Source: Ignavibacteria bacterium (GTDB lineage: Bacteria > Bacteroidota > Ignavibacteria > Kapaibacteriales > Kapaibacteriaceae). Taken from it: a stretch of 64,000 nt of DNA. Location of the stretch: the NCBI GenBank assembly GCA_016191145.1, contig JACPPD010000001.1, positions 1-64,000 on the forward strand, given 5' to 3'. Position numbers and translations under genes: made by a program. The notes under the pieces were generated by a model. That model saw only the letters and a list, made by a program, of their open reading frames with translations. It ran no database searches and was not told where the DNA came from. Positions 118-42,118 of this stretch are shown here, piece by piece (the stretch's first letter is position 1; each line of letters opens with the position of its first letter).

Positions 118-1863
118 TTGTGCGAAATTTGTCCTGTGATAACAACGCTGCATAGTCTTTCACCGAGTGAGCTCATCGAGCTTGCTGCGACACAGTACCA
201 ACAGATTTCTTCGCAGCATCAAACGATTGCATCACATCAGCAAGAGCTTGCATCACATCATCAAACGATTGCATCACATCAGCAAACGATTGCATCACAT
301 CAGCAAGAGCTTGACGTAAAGAATGAGAATATTCTGCAGTACAAAGCTCGAGTGTTTGATCTTGAATTTCAGATCAAAGAACTGCAGCGTCTGATCTTCG
401 GAGCAAAACGCGAGCGCTATGTCTCGGAGGTGTCGGCAAGCCAGCTCATGCTGAACTTTGAGGCCAGCGGGACGGATGTTCGGGCAGCTGTTGAAGCCGA
501 GCTCGAGAAGATCACCTATGAACGCAAGAAACCACACCAGAAGAAGCACGACGGGCGCATGGAGATGCCGAAGCATCTGCCTGTTGTCGAAACGGTGATT
601 GAGCCTGAAGAAGACACCACAGACATGAAACGTATCGGTGAAGAGGTCAGTGAAGTGCTCGACATCACACCGGCACGCATGTACGTCAGGCGCACGATCC
701 GTCCGAGGTATGCCTCAGAGGAATCGGCCGACGGATCGCAACGCATCGTGATCGCAGACCTGCCGAGCCGTCCCATTGACAAATGCAAGGCAGGCACGGA
801 CCTGCTGACGACCATTACCATCGATAAGCATAAAAGCGGGCCTCACCATATTCCGATCGACCGTCAGCTGAAGCGCTTCTCGATGCTGGGCGTTGTTATC
901 CCAACCTCAACTGTCGAATCCTGGCAGAAGCTTGTGGCGGAACTGATGCGTCCGCTACATGCAGCCTTGCGTGTCGAGGTTCGGCAGTCGTCCTATCTGC
1001 AGGTTGATGAAACAGGTCTGGCCGTGCAGGACAGAACCAAACAGGGAACCACACATAAAGGATTTCTCTGGGGCTACCATGCGCCGCTGCAGCGTATTGT
1101 GTATTTCGAGTATCAGAAAGGACGTGGACAGATTCATTGCCGCGAGTTGTTAGACACCTACACCGGATATCTGCAGACCGACGACTATCAGGCCTATCAC
1201 CACCACAAGGCACGCGACGGCGTGATCGCTCTTGCCTGCTGGGCACATGCACGACGAAACTTTGAGAAGGCTCTCGATTACGATCGTGATCGTACACGCA
1301 TAGCCATGAAACTCATTCAGAAAATCTACGAGGTAGAGCGAGAAGCACGTGACAACAACCTCACGCACGAGCAGCGTAAAGAATTGCGATTGGAGAAATC
1401 GTTGCCGGTGCTGAATATCATCAGCGCATGGATGGTCGATCAACTGCCGGAGACTCTGCCGAAGAGTCCGCTGGGTAAAGCTTTGCGCTATGCCATTCGA
1501 CTGTGGGACGACCTCATGGCCTATCTCTATGATGGCAGGCTTGAGATCGACAACAACCTGATGGAAAATGCCATTCGACCGATCGCTCTCGGCAGAAAGA
1601 ATTATCTCTTTGCCGGATCCCACGACGCCGCGCAGAACATCGCCATGTACCGATCGTTCTTCGCCACGTGTCATCGTAATTCTATCAATCCGTACAATTG
1701 GCTGCGATACGTTCTTACGCAGATTAATACCACTGCTCCCGTCAACTATCAAACGTTATTACCGCATCGCATTTGCTTGCTTGATGACAACCATCGCATT
1801 TGTTTTTTCGATTTATCACTAGAAGTGACTTCAAAACTCAATCCCAATTTCGGAGCGGATTAA
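118..1863 (+). CDS. tnpC: IS66 family transposase TnpC
   Basis: This is the DDE transposase of an IS66-type insertion sequence, 581 residues. It has an N-terminal glutamine/histidine-rich coiled coil (about residues 25-85), the LQRLIFGAKRER segment typical of the IS66 N-terminal domain, a zinc-binding-type region, then the catalytic core. The likely catalytic acidic residues are D297 (in VDET), D355 (in TDDYQ) and E483 (in DNNLMENAIRP). The start is a TTG, so an internal start is possible. The usual C-terminus of related proteins ends near LLPHR; here about 30 extra residues follow (CLLDDNHRI onward), which suggests the original 3' end has been replaced by other DNA. The coding region is otherwise intact, so the enzyme could be active. 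Confidence 0.93.
   Translation: MCEICPVITTLHSLSPSELIELAATQYQQISSQHQTIASHQQELASHHQTIASHQQTIASHQQELDVKNENILQYKARVFDLEFQIKELQRLIFGAKRERYVSEVSASQLMLNFEASGTDVRAAVEAELEKITYERKKPHQKKHDGRMEMPKHLPVVETVIEPEEDTTDMKRIGEEVSEVLDITPARMYVRRTIRPRYASEESADGSQRIVIADLPSRPIDKCKAGTDLLTTITIDKHKSGPHHIPIDRQLKRFSMLGVVIPTSTVESWQKLVAELMRPLHAALRVEVRQSSYLQVDETGLAVQDRTKQGTTHKGFLWGYHAPLQRIVYFEYQKGRGQIHCRELLDTYTGYLQTDDYQAYHHHKARDGVIALACWAHARRNFEKALDYDRDRTRIAMKLIQKIYEVEREARDNNLTHEQRKELRLEKSLPVLNIISAWMVDQLPETLPKSPLGKALRYAIRLWDDLMAYLYDGRLEIDNNLMENAIRPIALGRKNYLFAGSHDAAQNIAMYRSFFATCHRNSINPYNWLRYVLTQINTTAPVNYQTLLPHRICLLDDNHRICFFDLSLEVTSKLNPNFGAD
217..314 (+). repeat. 21-bp tandem repeats inside tnpC
   Basis: About four and a half copies of a 21-bp unit (core CATCAAACGATTGCATCACA, with a variant reading CAAGAGCTTG) encode the repeated heptad SHQQTIA / SHQQELA. 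The heptad length keeps the frame and extends the N-terminal coiled coil of the transposase. Copy number probably varies between copies of this element. Confidence 0.85.
1746..1772 (+). repeat. Left copy of 27-bp tnpC-tail direct repeat
   Basis: This stretch encodes NYQTLLPHRI near the end of tnpC. It matches 3450-3476 at 25 of 27 positions in the same orientation. The two copies bracket the 494-residue reading frame at 1904-3388. Confidence 0.8.
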
Positions 1864-37626: not shown

Positions 37627-38997
37627 TTAATCCATAATCTTTCTGAGGAATGCAGGCTGATTATTGCCGCCGCCAGATGTTGCAGTCTTCGCTGGCCGCA
37701 GGAACGTACCTGGTGCAGGTTGCGATTCGTTTTGTTGTGAAGGTACGGCCTGGGAATCGGCGCTCGATGAAACCTTTATTGCCGGCCTGACATCCGATTC
37801 AAATCCTGCTTCCGCTTGCGTTAGTTTCTTCCTCCGCCATATTGCGGGTTGTTCAACATCGTTAGGATCTATCGCTGCCGAAGGCTTGAGTATTCGGCTC
37901 GTACCGGCAGTGGCGGCTGGCCGATAATAATCGGGCTCCGTCTCGTTATCGCCTGACGCCTCTTTCGGGTCGGGTTCGTTCGATCCGCCCCTTACAATTG
38001 TAATTCTCGGAGCAGATAGCTCCGTCCTGTGCTCTTCGGTCCTATGAAAGCCGGTAGCGACTACGGTAATTGATATTTCATCATCCATGAGTGTGTCTAT
38101 CACAACTCCGTGAATCAGATTCGCGTCTTCGCCTGCGGCTTTTTGCACGCAGGATACGGCTTCGTTCACCTCGTGCATTGTAAGCGAAGGACTGCCGGTA
38201 ATGTTCACAAGCAGTCCCTGCGCACCGTAAATCTGCATCCCTTCAAGGATTGGAGAATTCAGTGCATTCTGCGCCGCTTCCAACGCTCGGCGCTCGCCGG
38301 TGGCAGTACCTATGCCCATAAGGGCATCGCCCTGACTCTTCATTACCGTTACAACATCTGCAAAGTCCACGTTGATGATGCCTTCGTGCGATACAATGTC
38401 TGCAATCCCTTTTGTTGCATTGTATAATACTTCGTCAGCTTTCTCGAGGGCTTCGCGGAACGGAACGGATGCGTCTACGACGGATAAAATCCTGTCGTTT
38501 GGAATCACAATCAATGCGTCAACTTCTTCCCGCAGATCTCGAACACCCGCTTCGGCCTGTCTTGCCCGTGTGCGATTTTCAAATGAAAAGGGGCGGGTAA
38601 CGATACCCACTACAAGGGCTCCGAGGTCGCGCGCCTCTCGTGCAATGACAGGAGCAGCGCCAGTACCTGTGCCTCCTCCCATACCGGCAGTCACGAACAC
38701 CATGTCGGCTCCGCGCAGTGCATCGCGTACTTCCTCGATGCTTTCTTCGACAGCGGCGCGGCCAATGTCGGGATTGGCTCCCGCCCCCAGACCACGCGTG
38801 GTGTTGCATCCCAACTGGATTTTAGTACCGGCAGGATTACGCATCAGCGCCTGACTGTCGGTATTAGCCGCAATGAATTCCACGGATTCTAATCCGCGTG
38901 AAATCATGGTGCGTACAGCGTTGCCGCCCGCTCCCCCAACGCCAACGACTCGTAGCCGGGCGCCTGTGATATTTATCGTTTCCAACTCAATCGGCAT
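37627..38997 (-). CDS. ftsZ: Cell division protein FtsZ
   Basis: The tubulin-like GTPase that forms the division ring. From 38997 it has about 456 residues; the longer frame to 39156 overlaps ftsA and is not needed. GTP-binding motifs are GVGGAGGNAV and the tubulin signature GGGTGTGAAPV; the T7 loop NVDFADVVTVM follows. A long, disordered, proline/serine-rich linker ends in QPAFLRKIMD, the conserved C-terminal peptide that binds FtsA. GGGGGGA lies just before the start. It follows ftsA by 19 bp. Confidence 0.97.
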   Translation of the reverse strand: MPIELETINITGARLRVVGVGGAGGNAVRTMISRGLESVEFIAANTDSQALMRNPAGTKIQLGCNTTRGLGAGANPDIGRAAVEESIEEVRDALRGADMVFVTAGMGGGTGTGAAPVIAREARDLGALVVGIVTRPFSFENRTRARQAEAGVRDLREEVDALIVIPNDRILSVVDASVPFREALEKADEVLYNATKGIADIVSHEGIINVDFADVVTVMKSQGDALMGIGTATGERRALEAAQNALNSPILEGMQIYGAQGLLVNITGSPSLTMHEVNEAVSCVQKAAGEDANLIHGVVIDTLMDDEISITVVATGFHRTEEHRTELSAPRITIVRGGSNEPDPKEASGDNETEPDYYRPAATAGTSRILKPSAAIDPNDVEQPAIWRRKKLTQAEAGFESDVRPAIKVSSSADSQAVPSQQNESQPAPGTFLRPAKTATSGGGNNQPAFLRKIMD

Positions 38998-39016
38998 GGT
39001 CCCCCCGATCGAAGAA

Positions 39017-40300
39017 TTATAAGTTTTCGAACCAGTTAACAATTTTCCTGATGAATCCTCTGCTGGCATCGTCAGACTGTCTGCCGACACCGTTTTCGCC
39101 ATTGCGCGCGTGAGACAACGACGCTTCCTCAAAACGATCGTCGAAATCACGAGCATGTTTTACCGAATACAATGCAAGGCCAACGGCCGTTGCATACATC
39201 GGTGAACTCACTTCCTTAGCCAGACCATCGCTGCTGAAGCCCCTTGGAATGCCGATGTTAACAGGGATTCTGAACATTCGCTGAGCAAGTGAATCAGCGC
39301 CCCGCAACATTGAACAGCCGCCAGTTATCACTGCTCCGGCACTCAGTTGATGCGCCCATCCGGATTCGAGCAGACGCTGCATTGCCAGCTCGAATATTTC
39401 TTCGACACGCGGTTCAATAATCTGACAAAGAATTGATTTGCTTAGATCAGTCGGGTTACGGCCTGCAACACCAGGCACCTGAACGAATTCATCGCGCATG
39501 ATGCTCTGCGAGTCGGCGTGACCGTGCTCGCGCTTGATTCGTTCTGCATCTGTGTTGCGAATACCAAGAACTGCAACAATATCATCTGTTACTTTCTGTC
39601 CGGCAACAGAAATGATGGAAGTGAACCGCAGGATGTTTCCGCGGAAGACGGCAACGTCTGTGGTGCCTCCGCCGATGTCGATGAGTGCAACACCAACTTC
39701 TTTTTCCGCGTCGTCGAGCACTGCGTATGCACTTGCAAGGGATTGCAAAACAACTGCGTCGATATGAAGATTTGCACGCTCTGCGCATCGGAAGATATTG
39801 TCTACTGCGGTTACGGAAGCAGTGATAACCAGTGCATTCGCTTCCAGACGCTTTCCGCTCATGCCGAGAGGATCGGTTATTCCGTCCTGACCGTCGATTA
39901 CATAGTCCTGGGGTATTACATGCAGAATGCGCCTGTCGGGAGTAATCCGCACCTGACGTAATTCATGATGCAGCCGATTGATATCGGTCTGTGTGATTTC
40001 CGTCGACGAGATGGTAACAATTGCACGCGTCGAAAACGCTGCAACGTGATCGCCCGAAACGCCAATCACAACACGACCAATTGTAAATCCCGATTGCTGT
40101 TCGGCTTTGTCTGTAGCAATGCGTATTGCCTCTGCAGTCTTGCCGATGTTTGTCACAACACCGCGCTTCAGTCCATCGCAGTCAGACAAGCCGGCGCCCA
40201 CAATATCGAGCCTGCCTGTTATCGCATCAGTCGATGCAACAACTGAGCACACCTTTGTGGTACCAATGTCGAGCCCAACATGGATCGAAGAACCGTTCAT
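39017..40300 (-). CDS. ftsA: Cell division protein FtsA
   Basis: A 427-residue actin-like ATPase that tethers FtsZ to the membrane. VGLDIGTTKVCSVVA (phosphate 1), the 1C domain (residues about 85-165), and IDIGGGTTDVAVF (phosphate 2) are present, with GGCSMLRGADSLA near the adenosine motif. The C-terminus, GFIRKIVNWFENL, is the amphipathic helix that binds the membrane. Lies between ftsQ (3-bp gap) and ftsZ. Confidence 0.97.
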   Translation of the reverse strand: MNGSSIHVGLDIGTTKVCSVVASTDAITGRLDIVGAGLSDCDGLKRGVVTNIGKTAEAIRIATDKAEQQSGFTIGRVVIGVSGDHVAAFSTRAIVTISSTEITQTDINRLHHELRQVRITPDRRILHVIPQDYVIDGQDGITDPLGMSGKRLEANALVITASVTAVDNIFRCAERANLHIDAVVLQSLASAYAVLDDAEKEVGVALIDIGGGTTDVAVFRGNILRFTSIISVAGQKVTDDIVAVLGIRNTDAERIKREHGHADSQSIMRDEFVQVPGVAGRNPTDLSKSILCQIIEPRVEEIFELAMQRLLESGWAHQLSAGAVITGGCSMLRGADSLAQRMFRIPVNIGIPRGFSSDGLAKEVSSPMYATAVGLALYSVKHARDFDDRFEEASLSHARNGENGVGRQSDDASRGFIRKIVNWFENL

Positions 40301-40303
40301 GAA

Positions 40304-41071
40304 TTACGCTGCAACCGTTGATGTACCTGAACGAACAACAATGTGGTGCCTCCATCTCAAGTCGATTTCCGTTGCGTTCTGGGCAAGACGCGAACCTGAC
40401 GTTCTGCTCCAAAACACATTCATATCGGCAAAGGCGTCTGAAACCCGCTCTATCTCGTGCCTACCGAGCCGCCACCGCAGTCTGTCCGTAAGAACAATGA
40501 CTGAACCATCCCCATCGATAACAACTTCGGAGATTGACTGAAACAAATCTGCGTGCAGCGTCGCTTCTGCACATTTCAAAACCTGAACAGCACGCCTGAT
40601 TGTCGTATTCGTCAAACTGTTCGGACACCGTAGCAGCGGAATGTTGAACGCACGAACAGCACGCGTTGGTGGAAGTAATGTCCCCTCTGCATCAACCATC
40701 TGCAATGAACCATTTGGCAGAACAACGTAGGCAACCGGAATCCGCTCAAGCACATCAACCGTGATATTACGAACGCCGGAAAAATGTACAGTTGCTTTTT
40801 TTACAAACGGAATTTGTTCGACCTTCATGCGCACATCGGCAAGCTCTACGTTGGATCGCGGCTTGCTCAGGCAGACGTCAGCTATTGCCTGCACCTGACG
40901 TATACTCAGATTCGTAGCCCCGGCAATCTCGACCTGCTCAACTGTCTGCCGTTCATGCCAGTGCGATGCGAAGAGCGCGAGAAAGACGACTATGAGCAGC
41001 GAGATAACAATCCCCGATGAGCGACGATTTTCCTCGAGTATCAATACCCTGCCTCTGACTTGCTGCCTCAC
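40304..41071 (-). CDS. ftsQ: Cell division protein FtsQ
   Basis: A 255-residue bitopic inner-membrane protein. A short cytoplasmic N-terminus with basic residues is followed by one membrane helix (IVISLLIVVFLALFA, about residues 21-40) and a POTRA domain (VEQVEIAGATNLSIRQVQAI ... VKKATVHFSGVRNITVDVLERIPVAYV). First gene of the ftsQAZ unit. The mur genes that usually precede it are not here: the upstream neighbour is the intergenic region with DnaA boxes and then an SDR gene, so the dcw cluster is split. Confidence 0.92.
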   Translation of the reverse strand: MRQQVRGRVLILEENRRSSGIVISLLIVVFLALFASHWHERQTVEQVEIAGATNLSIRQVQAIADVCLSKPRSNVELADVRMKVEQIPFVKKATVHFSGVRNITVDVLERIPVAYVVLPNGSLQMVDAEGTLLPPTRAVRAFNIPLLRCPNSLTNTTIRRAVQVLKCAEATLHADLFQSISEVVIDGDGSVIVLTDRLRWRLGRHEIERVSDAFADMNVFWSRTSGSRLAQNATEIDLRWRHHIVVRSGTSTVAA

Positions 41072-41086
41072 CTTTAAGCCTTGATT

Positions 41087-41288
41087 TGTGGAAAACTGGA
41101 TGAGTAATTCACACTATGTGGAAAACCCCGACCTGCCTCCCTTCCCCCCAGCTCCGAGTTTCGAAGCCAGTAATTGATATCCCTGCCTATGGCAATGGCT
41201 TACAACTATCGCAAAGGTAGTTTCTTAAGAGTAGTAATGCAAGTATAAATGCTTAAAACATGTGCCCAAAATGAATTGTTTATCCACA
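41087..41288. promoter_or_regulatory. Three DnaA boxes upstream of ftsQAZ
   Basis: TTATCCACA at 41280-41288 (plus strand) is a perfect DnaA box. TTTTCCACA on the minus strand at 41087-41095 and again at 41117-41125 fits TTWTNCACA. All three lie in the 258-bp gap between ftsQ and the SDR gene. The part from about 41205 to 41285 is AT-rich. Either a replication origin or DnaA control of division genes would fit. Confidence 0.55.
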
Positions 41289-41329: not shown

Positions 41330-42118
41330 CTAGCTCAGCGATCTCATCCTGCCACCATCTACTAAGATGCTTGTTCCGGTGATGTACGAAGCTTCCCTCG
41401 ATGCCAGAAAAAGCGCTGCATGGGCAATCTCAGAGGGGTCGGCAAATCGGCCGACAGGAATAAGTTTTATCATTTTATTTCGAATATCTTCCTCAGATAC
41501 TCCGCTGTCCTTGCTCTGGCGGGCAATGATGGTCTCCAACCTGTTCGTTAGCGTAGCCCCAGGTAGTATGTTGTTCACGGTAACACCAAACGGCGCAAGC
41601 TCCGTTGCCAGAGTCTTTGACCAGCTTGCCATTGCACCCCTCACAATATTGCTTACACCAAGCCCTTCGATTGGTTGCTTAACTGATGTGGAAATAATGT
41701 TAATGAATCTGCCAAACTTCTCGGCTTTCATGAAGGGCGAGAGCAATTGCATTAACTCATGGCTAACAAGTATATGATCGTGAAAAGCTTGGGTAAGACT
41801 CTCCACATGGCTTTTAATTAACTCACCCGCATTAGGTCCTGCAGTGTTGTTCACAACAATGTGGAATCCACCATGATTATCCACGTGTTTTTCCACTTGC
41901 TGTATAACCTCAGCACTGCGAATGTCTGTGACGACGACGTAGTGGCGCTGGCCTTGCTTCATCACGAGAGTATCTCGTACCTGCTCCAAGAGATTCTCCG
42001 AGCGCGCCAACAGCGTCACCGAAGCTCCGTTTTCAGCAAGGGCAATTGCTATTGCCTTGCCAATGCCTTTCGATGCACCGGCAACAAGTGCACGTAATCC
42101 TGTGAGGTCAGTTGTCAT
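41330..42118 (-). CDS. SDR family protein lacking the catalytic Tyr-Lys pair
   Basis: A 262-residue short-chain dehydrogenase/reductase fold. The cofactor motif GASKGIGKAIA, the NNTAG motif and the C-terminal ITGTSILVDGG are all typical of FabG-like enzymes. The active-site YxxxK is replaced: the segment reads GVSNIVRGAMASW, so Tyr becomes Ser and Lys becomes Arg, while the preceding serine (IISTS) remains. It may bind NAD(P) without standard chemistry, or use another mechanism. It is divergent from the 3-hydroxyanthranilate dioxygenase gene and may belong to the same pathway. Confidence 0.88.
   Translation of the reverse strand: MTTDLTGLRALVAGASKGIGKAIAIALAENGASVTLLARSENLLEQVRDTLVMKQGQRHYVVVTDIRSAEVIQQVEKHVDNHGGFHIVVNNTAGPNAGELIKSHVESLTQAFHDHILVSHELMQLLSPFMKAEKFGRFINIISTSVKQPIEGLGVSNIVRGAMASWSKTLATELAPFGVTVNNILPGATLTNRLETIIARQSKDSGVSEEDIRNKMIKLIPVGRFADPSEIAHAALFLASREASYITGTSILVDGGRMRSLS

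Follow-up and report, generated by a model that had tools for sequence, protein, structure and literature searches.

What is a cluster of DnaA boxes doing directly upstream of a cell division gene? An earlier note on a 64,000-nucleotide stretch of DNA from an Ignavibacteria bacterium of the family Kapaibacteriaceae (hereafter, the window) had pointed to three such sites between ftsQ and an SDR gene, and had offered two readings of them: a candidate replication origin, or DnaA-linked expression of ftsQAZ. We examined both readings, and others, in the window, in its genome and in related genomes.

Three predicted DnaA boxes upstream of ftsQ

A motif scan of the 258-bp gap upstream of ftsQ returned one TTATCCACA and two TTTTCCACA, at the three positions and on the strands that had been claimed (Table 1). 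The claim that about 0.02 matches to TTWTNCACA are expected in the gap was close to our own figure of about 0.027, recomputed from the base composition of the gap. The motif is not generally enriched in this genome, since TTWTCCACA occurs 28 times in 2.47 Mb as compared with 26 times for a reversed control pattern. The ftsQ gap is the genome's sole TTWTCCACA cluster, and nowhere else do two copies fall within a few hundred bases. With a genome-wide expectation of only about 7e-5 for a triple within 202 bp, a chance cluster was ruled out, and conservation in relatives provides independent evidence on this point. In a scan of 1.94 Mb from four genomes, no box cluster in any of them was stronger than the one at ftsQ.

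Pfam searches identified the division genes and the SDR gene (Table 1) and also confirmed genes for a 3-hydroxyanthranilate dioxygenase and an amidohydrolase. The GTG start of ftsQ was aligned in 22 of 23 relatives. The neighbouring genes had been described as diverging at the boxes, as they would around an origin. This proved incorrect: the SDR gene runs leftward, as ftsQ does, which places the point of divergence near 42.1 kb, between the SDR gene and the 3-hydroxyanthranilate dioxygenase gene, and not at the boxes. In other families of the order (L054, L056, L057 and L058), ftsQ is often found beside a divergent gene for a XerC/D-type recombinase, as recognized from the translations. Elsewhere in the window, an open reading frame at 118-1863 (+) resembles an IS66-type transposase, with SHQQ-type heptads repeated close to the N terminus.

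Table 1. Genes and predicted control elements at the ftsQ locus, with their positions in the window
Feature	Position	Strand	Description
ftsZ	37627..39156	-	Pfam Tubulin and FtsZ_C
ftsA	39017..40300	-	Pfam FtsA and SHS2_FTSA
ftsQ	40304..41071	-	Encodes 255 aa from a GTG at 41071; POTRA_1 and FtsQ_DivIB_C domains of Pfam, both above cut-off
DnaA box C (predicted)	41087..41095	-	TTTTCCACA; in the 5' leader directly before ftsQ
Weak inverted box Bi	41105..41113	+	TAATTCACA in the window; TTATTCACA in many relatives
DnaA box B (predicted)	41117..41125	-	TTTTCCACA
Early-transcribed element	41176..41203	-	GTAAgCC.TTG....GGATAT; conserved in the 23-genome alignment
-7 promoter element	41212..41219	-	TACCTTTG; Bacteroidota TAnnTTTG
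-33 promoter element	41240..41242	-	TTG; separated from the -7 element by 20 nt
DnaA box A (predicted)	41280..41288	+	TTATCCACA; precedes the inferred start site by about 73-81 bp
SDR gene	41330..42118	-	Pfam adh_short_C2; same direction as ftsQ
Degenerate SDR-internal sites	41877..41897	+	TTATCCACG at 41877-41885 and TTTTCCACT at 41889-41897

A predicted promoter framed by the boxes in 23 family genomes

FtsQ was present in all 40 genomes searched, and the regions upstream of its gene could be aligned in 23 genomes of the same family. In these, the boxes frame a promoter of the Bacteroidota type (TTG-20-TAnnTTTG) in 23 of 23 cases. Read toward ftsQ, the alignment shows box A as TGTGGATAA, the TTG of the -33 element, 20 nt, the -7 element, a GTAA..C.TTG....GGATAT stretch, box B as GTTWTCCACA together with the weak inverted box, box C and then the GTG. 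The -33 TTG and its 20-nt distance to the -7 element were found in all 23 genomes; the -7 element reads TAnnTTTG in 22 of them and TAGATTAG in the remaining one. The -7 consensus of the Bacteroidota sigma-A factor is TAnnTTTG, located at -12 to -5 (PMC9723704). Transcription is accordingly predicted to begin near 41207; relative to this start site, box A spans about -81 to -73, and boxes B to C fall between about +83 and +121. Just past the start site, nearly all of the 23 genomes have the GTAA..C.TTG....GGATAT stretch. An AT-rich segment next to box A had been reported as well; it is real (60-75% AT in 40-bp windows from 41202 on), but it corresponds to the -7/-33 region of the promoter and its surroundings.

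The boxes themselves are kept to different degrees. Box A is exact in 18 of the 23 genomes and has at most one mismatch in 22; box B has at most one mismatch in 21; box C is an exact TTWTCCACA in 14 and has at most one mismatch in 19, and some relatives (e.g. G016, G022 and G014) have a weak B or C. Their spacing is nearly constant: box A lies 69-70 bp from the start of the -7 element in 23/23 genomes, B and C are 30-32 bp apart in 22/23, and A and B are 163-166 bp apart in 22/23. In the one exception, G003, the A-B distance is 185 bp; the extra length amounts to about two helical turns and is placed between the promoter and box B.

The boxes thus stand in a fixed register with the promoter in 23/23 genomes, and the layout is limited to the family. 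The pattern TGTGGATAA-TAnnTTTG-TTNWCCACA was found in 17 of the 23 family genomes, with a single match in each and always at ftsQ, whereas 100 other genomes of the order contained none; the reversed control pattern also gave no match. One closed genome of the same genus, G004, has no SDR gene upstream of ftsQ, and no SDR homologue was detected in it at E 1e-20, yet all three boxes and the promoter are kept. The boxes therefore belong to ftsQ and not to the SDR gene. In G004 (L102, G004:2310001-2330000), genes resembling those at 44.0-46.5 kb of the window adjoin ftsQ in place of the SDR gene.

The leader was also considered as a possible structured RNA. For one sequence the fold was better than those of its shuffles (z -2.6), but RNAalifold returned no consensus structure, the named pairs showed no covariation above that of shuffled alignments and there was no Rfam match, so that this candidate was rejected.

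A second array of boxes inside the SDR gene

The two imperfect sites that had been noticed inside the SDR gene, TTATCCACG and TTTTCCACT, are present (Table 1). Across 22 family genomes, which are related so that their counts are not independent, the SDR coding sequence contains 116 boxes when up to one mismatch is allowed, as compared with 18.7 (sd 3.7, maximum 29) in synonymous shuffles; exact boxes number 9 versus 1.0. Permuted-motif controls gave 1-8 matches. No excess of boxes was found in the coding sequences of ftsQ (1 versus 3.2) and ftsA (6 versus 7.0), or in SDR homologues of other families (6 versus 4.2; 13 homologues, four left out). Taken singly, nine of ten representatives had counts reached by only 0-6 of 1000 shuffles. 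The exception was the window's own genome, with 3 boxes versus 0.97, a count reached by 49 of 1000 shuffles, which is marginal. The explanation that these sites are a by-product of coding was therefore rejected family-wide by the shuffles, the permuted motifs, ftsQ and ftsA, and the other-family homologues, the result being only marginal in the window's genome. The sites near 41877 are what is left of this SDR-internal array in the window.

Are the sites recognized by DnaA?

In the 23-genome alignment, position 3 of the boxes is occupied by A or T and, in Bi and C, position 5 by C or T. Known DnaA boxes tolerate variation at these same positions. The DnaA protein encoded by the window's genome has a standard DNA-binding domain, in which GGRDHTTV is kept, as seen by alignment to the E. 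coli domain in 1j1v. We infer that DnaA is the protein that binds the boxes.

Exact matches to the three-box arrangement were sought in 84,980 genomes. Among the matches listed, at least 80 in number, 40 were in loci that also encode DnaA and two were upstream of ftsQ (L193, and L202 from Ignavibacteria bacterium UBA2333). The idea that the three-box spacing is specific to ftsQ was consequently rejected, as the same spacing often occurs beside dnaA in other phyla among these matches; the specific part is the register with the promoter. Within the 3.5-kb locus of the window genome's own dnaA, no box was found within one mismatch, and autoregulation by the same motif is thus not seen in this genome. 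A single TTATCCACA is located upstream of dnaA in two genomes of genus g4 (L063:841 and L064:2552), where autoregulation is possible. In another relative, five TTWTCCACA are found in 1.8 kb around a recJ-like gene (G008:C6:416075-417915).

Origin, titration site or operator of another factor

We considered the first proposal, that chromosome replication starts at this cluster. It does combine boxes with an AT-rich stretch, and three-box clusters of like spacing elsewhere often adjoin dnaA, among the matches listed. Yet the positions of the skew minimum, parS and dnaA contradict this reading. In the closed genome G004, cumulative GC skew measured on sampled stretches was lowest at 1.47-1.49 Mb and highest near 0.05 Mb. 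The only parS pair of this genome (TGTTTCACGTGAAACA-like, at 1,477,001 and 1,477,125) lies at the skew minimum, beside a gene that we take from its translation to be mnmG, whereas the ftsQ boxes are at 2.319 Mb, about 0.84 Mb away. In the window's genome, a perfect parS is found beside mnmG at C11:153681 and dnaA is at C19:57255, whereas the window is on C5. None of four genomes (G004, G000:C5, G008:C8 and G013:C24) showed an origin-like switch of skew at ftsQ, with the proviso that skew is weak in this group and was measured on sampled stretches rather than whole chromosomes: it kept one sign on both sides of ftsQ over most sampled stretches of G008:C8 and G013:C24, and on the window's own contig (G000:C5) it went from weakly positive to negative around ftsQ, the opposite of what an origin would give. 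The ftsQ locus thus has the DnaA-box cluster of an oriC, but neither its skew minimum nor linkage to parS or dnaA, and we regard an origin at this site as extremely improbable. The true origin region of the window's genome likely lies next to serS, in an AT-rich gap that contains weak box-like sites and is separated by about 3.5 kb from the parS at mnmG (G000:C11:149770-150161, i.e. L167:15513-15904). The serS-gap region has tandem boxes in the relatives G007, G008 and G013. A literature search returned no publication on origins in Kapabacteria.

The main rival to promoter control, and one compatible with it, is that the locus serves mainly as a DnaA titration or nucleotide-switch site of the datA/DARS kind, in which the promoter boxes and the SDR array would soak up or modify DnaA and control of ftsQAZ would be secondary. 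Like datA and DARS of E. coli, the ftsQ element is a cluster of DnaA boxes outside the origin and far from oriC, at about 0.84 Mb from the skew/parS origin in G004. Its rank as the strongest cluster of the four genomes scanned and the second array in the SDR coding sequence (116 boxes versus 18.7), which is absent from other-family SDR homologues, also fit such a role. Unlike those loci, however, the ftsQ boxes keep a fixed register with a promoter, which points to control of transcription, and B and C lie within its transcript. The function of datA and DARS suffers when they are strongly transcribed (PMC5010248), and datA, which needs an IHF site, is disturbed by transcription (PMC10950094, PMC5010248). 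To function, datA and DARS2 depend on an IHF or Fis site. In addition, G004 has lost the SDR array, and the array of the window's genome is weak. Titration as the main role is on balance unlikely. We give slightly more credence to a combined arrangement, though it is still doubtful, in which a DnaA hub of about 0.8 kb would gate the division genes through the promoter boxes while the overlapping array, written in synonymous codons of the SDR gene, would titrate DnaA or loop to the promoter. The sites could also be operators of another transcription factor with a motif resembling the DnaA box. This would accommodate the near invariance of box A and the fact that boxes at the genome's own presumed origin are weaker than consensus, and the assignment to DnaA was itself made from sequence. 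Yet the motif fits the DnaA box down to the positions at which variation is tolerated, and half of the listed three-box arrays from other bacteria are in DnaA-encoding loci, so that we consider another factor quite improbable.

Proposed control of ftsQAZ by DnaA

DnaA-linked expression of ftsQAZ, the other proposal of the earlier note, is well supported by the position of the predicted boxes, which frame the conserved promoter at near-constant spacing in 23/23 genomes. The cluster is therefore probably a conserved region through which the ftsQAZ promoter responds to DnaA. The framing, the 163-166-bp spacing and the exception of about two helical turns suggest a loop or a block in the leader. 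DnaA would bind box A upstream of the promoter and, within the transcribed leader, boxes B, Bi and C; the molecules on the two sides would meet in a loop, or polymerase would be blocked at B and C. In this model, ftsQAZ would be transcribed little around initiation, when there is much active DnaA, and more freely once DnaA has been consumed or inactivated. That DnaA represses by looping rather than activates is a guess; DnaA may instead activate, as has been proposed for ftsZ in Caulobacter. Three observations speak against control by DnaA: comparable boxes in E. coli ftsQA do not drive ftsZ transcription, the genome's own dnaA locus lacks boxes within one mismatch, and B or C is weak in some relatives.

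A literature search returned no publication on DnaA control of ftsQ in Bacteroidetes, but related cases are known from other bacteria. In Caulobacter crescentus, DnaA regulates the ftsZ promoter, together with those of gcrA and mipZ, and DnaA-ADP has been proposed as the activator (PMC8203912). Both there and, as predicted from sequence, here, DnaA acts at the promoter of a division gene that is essential, and couples that gene to replication. Unlike in Caulobacter, the sites flank the ftsQ promoter at a nearly fixed spacing, in another phylum and with an extra array in the upstream gene. The ftsQAZ cluster of E. coli also contains three DnaA boxes, in ftsQA, which according to the account given in PMC8203912 (citing Smith et al. 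1996) do not control ftsZ transcription. Those boxes, however, are inside coding genes, whereas the present ones surround a promoter ahead of ftsQ. In Bacillus subtilis, DnaA is found in vivo at the promoter region of ftsL (PMC8203912), which is a different gene, and no comparable conserved layout is described in that paper. The ftsQ element is thus, as a prediction, a new version of DnaA control at a division-gene promoter.

The SDR array represents an unusual case in which predicted binding sites are retained within a coding gene through codon choice. If the combined arrangement were true, a single nucleoprotein complex would set both replication initiation and septation. How replication and division are coupled is an old question, and the near-constant spacing seen across the family turns it into a testable prediction of DnaA control of ftsQAZ. 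Our findings suggest that, in this uncultured family, the protein that initiates replication may also control cell division.
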